Of a DNA stretch of 11,184 bases, positions 8,973 through 10,199 are shown piece after piece; position 1 is the first letter of the stretch; the number at the start of each line of letters is the position of its first letter. The position numbers and the translations under genes are program-made. The notes under the pieces were generated by a model. It was not told the DNA's origin. It saw nothing but the letters and a program-made list of their open reading frames with translations, and ran no database searches. This stretch comes from Deltaproteobacteria bacterium RBG_13_61_14. GTDB taxonomy: Bacteria; RBG-13-61-14. The stretch spans positions 10,178 to 21,361 of the forward strand of contig MGQK01000009.1 in assembly GCA_001797815.1 (NCBI GenBank), in the 5' to 3' direction.

Positions 8973-9617
8973 ATGAAAAAATCTTGCCGGATTTATCTGG
9001 TGCGCCACGGCCAGACCGACTGGAACAAGGAGAAAGTGTTTCGCGGACTGGCCGACCGGCCGCTCTCCGATGCCGGCCGCGCCGAGGCCCTGGCCGTGGG
9101 CGAGGCGCTCCAGGACGAGCCGGTGGACTTCATTTACGCTTCCCCGCTCAAGCGGGCGCGGCAGACGCTGGAGCCGCTGGCCCGCTGGAAGCACAAGCGG
9201 ATCCGGCCGGCGCCGGGGCTGATTGACATTGACTACGGGGAGTGGTCGGGGAGGCCCGAGGCCGCGGTGCAAAAAGCCTATCCTAAATTGTATAAAGCCT
9301 GGCGGCAGCGGCCGGAGACCGTGACCTTCCCCCACGGCGAAAGCCTGGCTGGGGTGGCCCGCCGGGCCTTGGTCCAGTTGAAAGATCTGGCCGCCCTCCA
9401 CCCGGGCCAAACGGTGGTGGTGGCTTCGCACCGGGTGGTGTGCAAGGTGATCGTGCTGAAATTGCTCGGGCTCCCGCTAGCCAAGTTCTGGGACGTGAAA
9501 CAAGACATTGCCTGCCTCAACCTCTTCGACTACGCCCCGCCCCGGGCCATCGTCCTTCTGCTCAACGACACCTGCCACCTCAAGGCGCTGCCCTCGCGCA
9601 TCACCGCGGATTTTTAG
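8973..9617 (+). CDS. Histidine phosphatase family protein (CobC/GpmB-like)
   Basis: This is a branch-1 histidine phosphatase of 214 aa, which forms a phosphohistidine intermediate during hydrolysis of small phosphate esters in the cytoplasm. Near the N-terminus, IYLVRHGQTDWN carries the catalytic His12 within RHG. FRGLADRPLSDAGRAEA, IYASPLKRARQTLEPL, IDYGEWSG (Glu90, likely acid) and ASHRVVCK (His153) complete the usual active-site set in order. Length is typical. ATG 8973 is supported by AAGGTGAG (8959-8966), 6 nt upstream. Family members include alpha-ribazole phosphatase, phosphoglycerate mutase-like enzymes and broad phosphatases. No cobalamin gene is adjacent, so I do not assign cobC. 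The gene follows the tandem-repeat patch and precedes the ORF6N gene by 48 bp. Confidence 0.9.
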   Translation: MKKSCRIYLVRHGQTDWNKEKVFRGLADRPLSDAGRAEALAVGEALQDEPVDFIYASPLKRARQTLEPLARWKHKRIRPAPGLIDIDYGEWSGRPEAAVQKAYPKLYKAWRQRPETVTFPHGESLAGVARRALVQLKDLAALHPGQTVVVASHRVVCKVIVLKLLGLPLAKFWDVKQDIACLNLFDYAPPRAIVLLLNDTCHLKALPSRITADF

Positions 9618-9628
9618 GCGGAAACGGG

Positions 9629-9647
9629 AGGCGCCGTTTTGGCGCCT
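9629..9647. repeat. Palindrome upstream of the ORF6N gene
   Basis: AGGCGCC (9629-9635) and GGCGCCT (9641-9647) form a perfect 7-bp stem with loop GTTTT. It lies 11 bp after the phosphatase stop and 18 bp before the ORF6N ATG. It aligns base for base with the palindrome inside the ORF6N gene (9882-9900), differing at three positions, two of which are a compensated pair. It could be an operator for ORF6N or a weak terminator for the phosphatase; no T tract follows. Confidence 0.75.
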
Positions 9648-9665
9648 TAAACGAAAGACCTGGAG

Positions 9666-10199
9666 ATGCAAACGGATCAAGCGGCGAGCCAACTTATCCC
9701 GAGGGAGAGGATCGAACGGTGCATTTACCTGATTCGCGGTCACAAGGTGATGCTGGACAATGAGTTAGCGGATCTTTACGGGGTTGAAACCAAGGCTTTG
9801 AACCGGGCGGTCAAAAGAAACCTGGAACGCTTTCCCGAGGACTTCATGTTTCAACTTACTCCCGAAGAGGCGGAAAACTTGAGGTGCCATTTTGGCACCT
9901 CAAGTTCAGACTGGGGTGGCCGGCGCTACTTGCACTATGCCTTCACCGAGCAAGGGGTGGCCATGCTCTCCAGCGTGCTGAAGAGCCGGCGCGCGGCCCT
10001 GGTCAACGTAGCCATCATGCGGGCCTTTGTGAAACTGCGCCAAATGCTGGCCTCGCATCGCGGCCTGGCCCGCCAGTTGGAGGCCCTGGAGAAAAAATAC
10101 GACGTCCAGTTCCGGGTGGTGTTCGACGCGATTCGGGAGCTGATGCGTCCTTCTCCGCCCTCCCTAAAACAAATCGGGTTTAAGCGGAACCAGGATTAG
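9666..10199 (+). CDS. ORF6N domain-containing protein
   Basis: The 177-aa product matches the ORF6N family, a DNA-binding-type domain related to phage KilA-N/Bro-N proteins and scattered across bacterial chromosomes and phages. The domain covers about residues 10-110: [60 protein letters not shown] and the hallmark [26 protein letters not shown] helical tail ([23 protein letters not shown]) ends near IGFKR. ATG 9666 is the only sensible start, because a TAA at 9648 closes the frame upstream; GGAG directly abuts it, a poor ribosome-binding site. A perfect 14-bp palindrome lies in codons 71-81. It is sandwiched between the phosphatase and purL (12 bp gap), suggesting insertion into a housekeeping region. 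The cellular role is unknown; a regulator or phage-derived antirepressor-like protein is possible. Confidence 0.9.
9876..9906. repeat. Perfect 14-bp palindrome within the ORF6N coding sequence
   Basis: AACTTGAGGTGCCA (9876-9889) and TGGCACCTCAAGTT (9893-9906) are exact reverse complements around TTT. The element encodes [10 protein letters not shown] in the domain, just before the conserved WGGRRY block. Its centre matches the palindrome upstream of the gene (9629-9647). Confidence 0.85.

Follow-up and report, generated by a model that had tools for sequence, protein, structure and literature searches.

The window analysed here is a stretch of 11,184 nucleotides from the genome of Deltaproteobacteria bacterium RBG_13_61_14 (4.7 Mb, 132 contigs). 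It carries on the + strand a gene of 177 aa (9666-10199) whose product belongs to the ORF6N family, scoring 121 bits against PF10543 in a profile search (gathering cut-off 27.8). A histidine-phosphatase gene recognised by a PF00300 profile match precedes it (8973-9617), and the gene starting on its far side reads as purL-like. Short imperfect tandem repeats (gcatgaggcatgagg, gacaccctgacaccc and cgacatacgacatac) are found in the intergenic segment 8800-8930. No solved ORF6N structure was found by sequence search, and the AlphaFold2 model of the window protein is of moderate confidence (mean pLDDT 73.6). Compared with known structures the model is closest to a Ski-like protein (Z 7.4), followed by Dachshund (6.5), RacA-DNA (4.8), Mbp1 (4.0) and BmrR (3.1), and because these values are only middling we claim no fold family for the protein, the MerR-like / KilA-N-superfamily DNA-binding fold included. 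The model places a predicted recognition helix at codons 42-51 (9789-9818, + strand), where the covariation described below is concentrated; it includes the codon of Arg47 (9804-9806, + strand), the residue that covaries with base 4 of the palindrome arm.

Two palindromes accompany this gene. The one inside it, the proposed site of its own protein, is a perfect 31-bp palindrome at 9876-9906, AACTTGAGGTGCCA-TTT-TGGCACCTCAAGTT, with 14-bp arms around the central TTT and the core AGGTGCCATTTTGGCACCT at 9882-9900. Its palindrome score is 14, whereas 200 synonymous recodings of that peptide average 3.9 and never exceed 7. The other, at 9629-9647 (AGGCGCCGTTTTGGCGCCT), has 7-bp arms, a 3-base centre and a G-T mismatch beside the centre, and ends 18 bp before the ATG, making it a possible second site near the gene start. 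The original prediction held that 9629-9647 and 9882-9900 are one element with three differences, two of them a compensated base-pair change, and we confirm both the coordinates and the differences, two of which turn a C:G into a T:A pair with the symmetry kept. A pattern that fits both palindromes has two matches in the window, on the + strand, where 0.03 are expected per shuffled window, a count that is no independent test because the pattern was derived from these two sites; across the whole genome it matches exactly at these two sites only. The paired palindromes are real, and the phenomenon is larger than was noted. Near 9629-9647 neither a sigma-70-like promoter (by consensus scan, a weak method) nor an intrinsic terminator (a G+C-rich stem followed by a T run) was found.

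A palindrome at the same place across ORF6N genes

We gathered 154 ORF6N genes of many phyla from whole-genome, GTDB and viral collections through similarity to the window protein or the conserved FTE motif, so that divergent members are under-sampled. A palindrome was called at a score of at least 8 between the RN..RFP motif and FTEQG. By this measure 147 of the 154 genes carry a palindrome at the same place, as against 0.84% of synonymous recodings, and in 136 genes the score is unreached by any of 200 recodings; the excess beyond codon expectation that had been anticipated for ORF6N homologues is thus present by a wide margin. At the corresponding codons, two paralogues from the genome of the window have palindromes of other sequence (TTGAAATCACAAATTGTGGTTTCAA and TTTGAGGTCACAATTTGTGACCTCAAA).

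In 136 genes (SQFVTS type) the palindrome is centred on codon position 1, whereas 11 others (LVTICDHL type) have the centre at codon position 2; with two reading frames in use, the DNA symmetry is therefore kept while the peptide changes. Among 70 sister pairs, 140 arm positions have changed on both sides (34 expected under independence), 126 of them with pairing kept, and 43 on one side. Whether Thr or Ile is encoded five codons downstream can be predicted from the third base of a Lys/Arg codon (74/1/9/24, p 1e-15), a link for which a protein-level explanation is not apparent. Mismatches within the palindromes are A-C in 21 cases and G-T in 10, and 16 and 11, respectively, among sister pairs. 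The two frames, the compensatory changes and the absence of a G-U bias argue for selection on double-stranded DNA. Comparison across the family shows, on this reading, that selection at the DNA level acts on the ORF6N palindrome, a feature that lies within coding sequence as an intragenic operator would.

Usually there is one site per gene; at least two CA-NNN-TG palindromes occur in 4 of 147 genes, and a few genes hold two or three in-frame palindromes. One gene (L128) has three within about 155 bp before FTEQG, its own Arg helix fitting the first only and the other two being of the Gln class. On a Parabacteroides distasonis plasmid (L325, 2425-4158) three tandem ORF6N genes lie directly upstream of leuS, the first two carrying palindromes of different classes.

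Covariation of recognition helix and site

Across the 147 genes, the residue in the alignment column that corresponds to Arg47 of the window protein (column 42) goes along with particular letters at arm bases 5 and 4. Gln is paired with CA (78/78), Glu with CG (29/29), Arg with NC (29/29) and Lys with TC (9/10), these counts coming from the same gene set in which the covariation was discovered. The difference between Gln and Glu tracks a synonymous Ser codon, TCA or TCG. Sister pairs give the same picture for helix residue and site (20/2/1/48, p 2e-14). Since helix and site are about 85 bp apart in the gene, their joint exchange as a block could be tested with matched pairs; it is rejected as the cause of the covariation, because pairs matched only on the columns between helix and site agree throughout (43/0/0/30) and these intervening columns have little or no covariation signal with the site. 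On a FastTree tree built without the helix and site columns each of the two traits changes about 45 times, and on supported branches they change together in 7/7 and 9/9 independent pairs, all of these being rough counts given the kind of tree.

Classical preferences pair Gln with A, Glu with C and Arg or Lys with G. If residue 47 contacts base pair 4, the helix-site pairing in ORF6N genes is the one that these preferences predict. The comparison shows that site and helix of one gene match in sequence, and a site specificity that fits the protein of the same gene is what an intragenic operator would display. This covariation gives strong support to the core of the original prediction, in which the palindrome within the gene is read by the gene's own ORF6N product.

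A similar relationship is found in RhuM genes: shortly after the codons of the recognition helix comes a palindrome, and the triplet on the inner side of its arm varies in accord with that helix. The palindrome threshold is reached in 22 of 27 genes, compared with 3.2% of recodings. PA/AA..K helices go with TCC (8/8), SV-type..K/R helices with GCA (8/8), and E is present in all 15 CGG genes; QN goes with AAG, DN with GAG and Y/H with CGA, and in sister pairs helix and site are associated at p 0.002. Among DinD-like Bro-N genes chosen by motif, 20 of 22 have a palindrome, and their helix-site table looks similar by inspection. On this comparative evidence the ORF6N-like arrangement extends to RhuM and Bro-N, each family with its own code. 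E. coli K-12 dinD was considered as a laboratory example of the Bro-N palindrome and dropped, as the gene and its subfamily are without it. KilA-N genes had none in 8 with scores like the null, and the one Rha gene seen had none. In one Bro-N gene (L267) a second palindrome, TTACA-NNN-TGTAA, has the same core as the internal site; it is located close to where the open frame begins, in a region that looks like a further Bro-N segment.

Upstream sites follow a different pattern. Palindromes with the core TNNCA-NNN-TGNNA are enriched before ORF6N starts (6.07 per 10 kb) over downstream (0.17) and further upstream (0) positions. The expectation of a matched upstream copy for each gene failed, in that only about one ORF6N gene in seven has one. 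The upstream specificity class agrees with the gene's own protein in 9.5 of 22 cases, no more than chance would give (shuffled mean 7.9, p 0.26), although over their full length the upstream half-sites are closer to the internal site of their gene than expected from shuffling (p 0.0008, in a sample that includes related loci). In the window the upstream copy, with CGCCG and CGCCA as its half-sites, belongs to the Arg/Lys class and fits the Arg helix, and in a Butyrivibrio proteoclasticus plasmid gene upstream and internal copies with unusual arms are nearly identical. The upstream sites, though real, may in many cases serve other members of the family. Because they are off the helix code, autoregulation at the promoter is not shown by the comparison; a promoter operator would be expected in more than this minority of genes and to follow the code. 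Of the operator pair originally proposed, with one site at the start and one in the gene body, the internal half is supported by the covariation as a site that the protein reads, whereas the upstream partner is a minority feature that departs from the code. Looping was considered from the helical phase of upstream-internal spacing and set aside: four periods were tried, and the Rayleigh p of about 0.015 for the 10.5-bp period is too weak for a claim.

Proposed feedback and known systems

Given that the covariation between helix and site holds in matched pairs and in other families, the ORF6N protein most likely binds the site in its own gene; for this step of direct binding, considered alone, we would be surprised to be wrong. 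The full explanation, in which an ORF6N gene holds the site of its own protein and is thereby subject to feedback by roadblock, is probable to a lesser degree. The codons that hold the site would encode a flexible loop immediately behind the DNA-binding helix region, and the palindrome would be bound as double-stranded DNA by a pair of protein molecules, one on each half. In each half, residue 47 would read base pair 4, Gln contacting A, Glu the C opposite G, and Arg or Lys the G opposite C. We infer dimerisation and repression of the protein's own gene, the bound protein slowing or blocking transcription whichever promoter drives it. Such a block would be independent of the promoter because the site lies in the gene body, and for the same reason the gene would keep its own feedback when landing between unrelated genes. 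The window gene, flanked as it is by the histidine-phosphatase and purL-like genes, may be such a case, and where an upstream site is present, as it is here, it could add promoter repression or looping. A roadblock tied specifically to restriction-modification operons was rejected, as many ORF6N genes sit between unrelated genes; the neighbours at three loci (L061, L062 and L069) read as type I restriction-modification subunits.

Repressor sites within coding sequence are familiar from lac O2 and gal OI, which act as a roadblock or by looping with an upstream site. Those operators belong to a regulated enzyme gene; the ORF6N site, by contrast, is part of the very gene that encodes the DNA-binding protein, an arrangement seen across families. 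The Bacillus subtilis spo0J/parB gene contains parS, the palindromic site of its own protein; parS is nearly invariant and serves chromosome partition, whereas ORF6N site and helix diversify together. Phage lambda O is alike in that the gene of a DNA-binding protein contains its binding site, ori-lambda, where replication starts, but that site consists of four 19-bp iterons and an A-T-rich segment, whereas ORF6N genes usually have one palindrome and a family-wide covariation code, with no evidence of a replicon (PMC4488673). The repABC plasmids likewise have a functional site, oriV, inside the coding sequence of RepC, an incompatibility factor, and oriV is sensitive to silent mutations; it is an A-T-rich region of plasmids without iterons, in contrast to the short palindrome of the standalone, mostly chromosomal ORF6N genes (PMC3155836). 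In the open-access literature we found no prior description of intragenic palindromes in ORF6N, RhuM or Bro-N genes, and no account of a DNA target bound by an ORF6N protein.

Bacterial genomes and mobile elements commonly encode ORF6N, Bro-N and RhuM domains. If the proposal is right, the target of each protein could be read from its own gene, making specificity predictable from sequence, and testable in parallel, for many proteins, and the matched helix-site pairs would be a natural recognition code (Gln-A, Glu-C, Arg/Lys-G). It would also suggest a way for single genes to remain under control once they have passed from one genome to another. Synonymous sites in palindrome-bearing genes are not neutral.

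Alternative explanations and sites elsewhere

The protein might instead bind its own gene for self/non-self recognition, incompatibility, partition or gene mobility rather than for expression feedback, a reading we consider unlikely and yet to be taken seriously because upstream sites match the gene's own helix weakly. It would accommodate the contrast between a near-universal internal site that obeys the helix code and optional promoter sites that do not, the frequent switching of specificity classes on the tree, and the integrases, transposases or other mobile functions on plasmids that are often neighbours of ORF6N genes. The protein, however, has no visible replication, partition or recombination function, the site is mostly single and without iterons, and copies of the site family near gene starts suggest transcriptional control. 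Negative feedback is our preferred reading of the predicted binding. Beyond feedback, we raise tentatively, as a prospect of rather low probability, that these three families of mobile DNA-binding proteins (ORF6N, DinD-like Bro-N and RhuM) may be encoded by lock-and-key genes, each specifying a reader and, within its coding sequence, the matching tag, the two diversifying together as one specificity module that distinguishes self from non-self among related mobile genes.

That the palindrome works as an mRNA hairpin, in translational feedback or mRNA stability, is very improbable. Being transcribed, the site could give the mRNA a stem of up to 14 bp, but an RNA stem should tolerate G-U over A-C, the reverse of the mismatch counts given above, and the helix residues that go with each site are suited to reading double-stranded DNA from the major groove. 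A still fainter chance attaches to another host factor binding the palindrome, a reading that has room because direct binding by the ORF6N protein is a prediction from covariation, but the gene's own helix residue predicts the site letter in nearly every gene and three families each have their own site type.

Scarcely credible, too, is the insertion of a dispersed mobile palindrome into ORF6N genes; in its favour one could cite the genes with two or three in-frame palindromes and the minority of copies away from ORF6N genes. A strict palindrome pattern found 59 sites in 41 of 386 genomes (none with the reversed control pattern), with at most 3 copies per genome where REP/RPE-like elements would have many dispersed ones. 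At 19 of the 26 loci read, the site is in or just upstream of an ORF6N gene. Intragenic palindromes, moreover, vary together with the helix that their own gene encodes. The original suggestion of a hairpin or of a mobile or recombination target is accordingly disfavoured by the lack of a G-U preference and by the low copy number concentrated at ORF6N genes. The other 7 loci have no ORF6N gene adjoining the site and include several intergenic sites and one before a type I restriction subunit-like gene; sites away from ORF6N genes may be further targets or relics. The restriction locus (L206, position 1500; G304:C1:49996-50020) has the palindrome just upstream of the gene, a second, imperfect palindrome further upstream, and no ORF6N gene within its 3 kb. 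At L195 (position 825; G068:C11:3825-3849) the palindrome lies between LexA-like and DUF1016-like (PDDEXK nuclease) genes, about 650 bp from an ORF6N gene. At L186 (2380-2490; G001:C62), in a genome without an ORF6N match, three tandem palindromes of three core classes lie close to the contig end.
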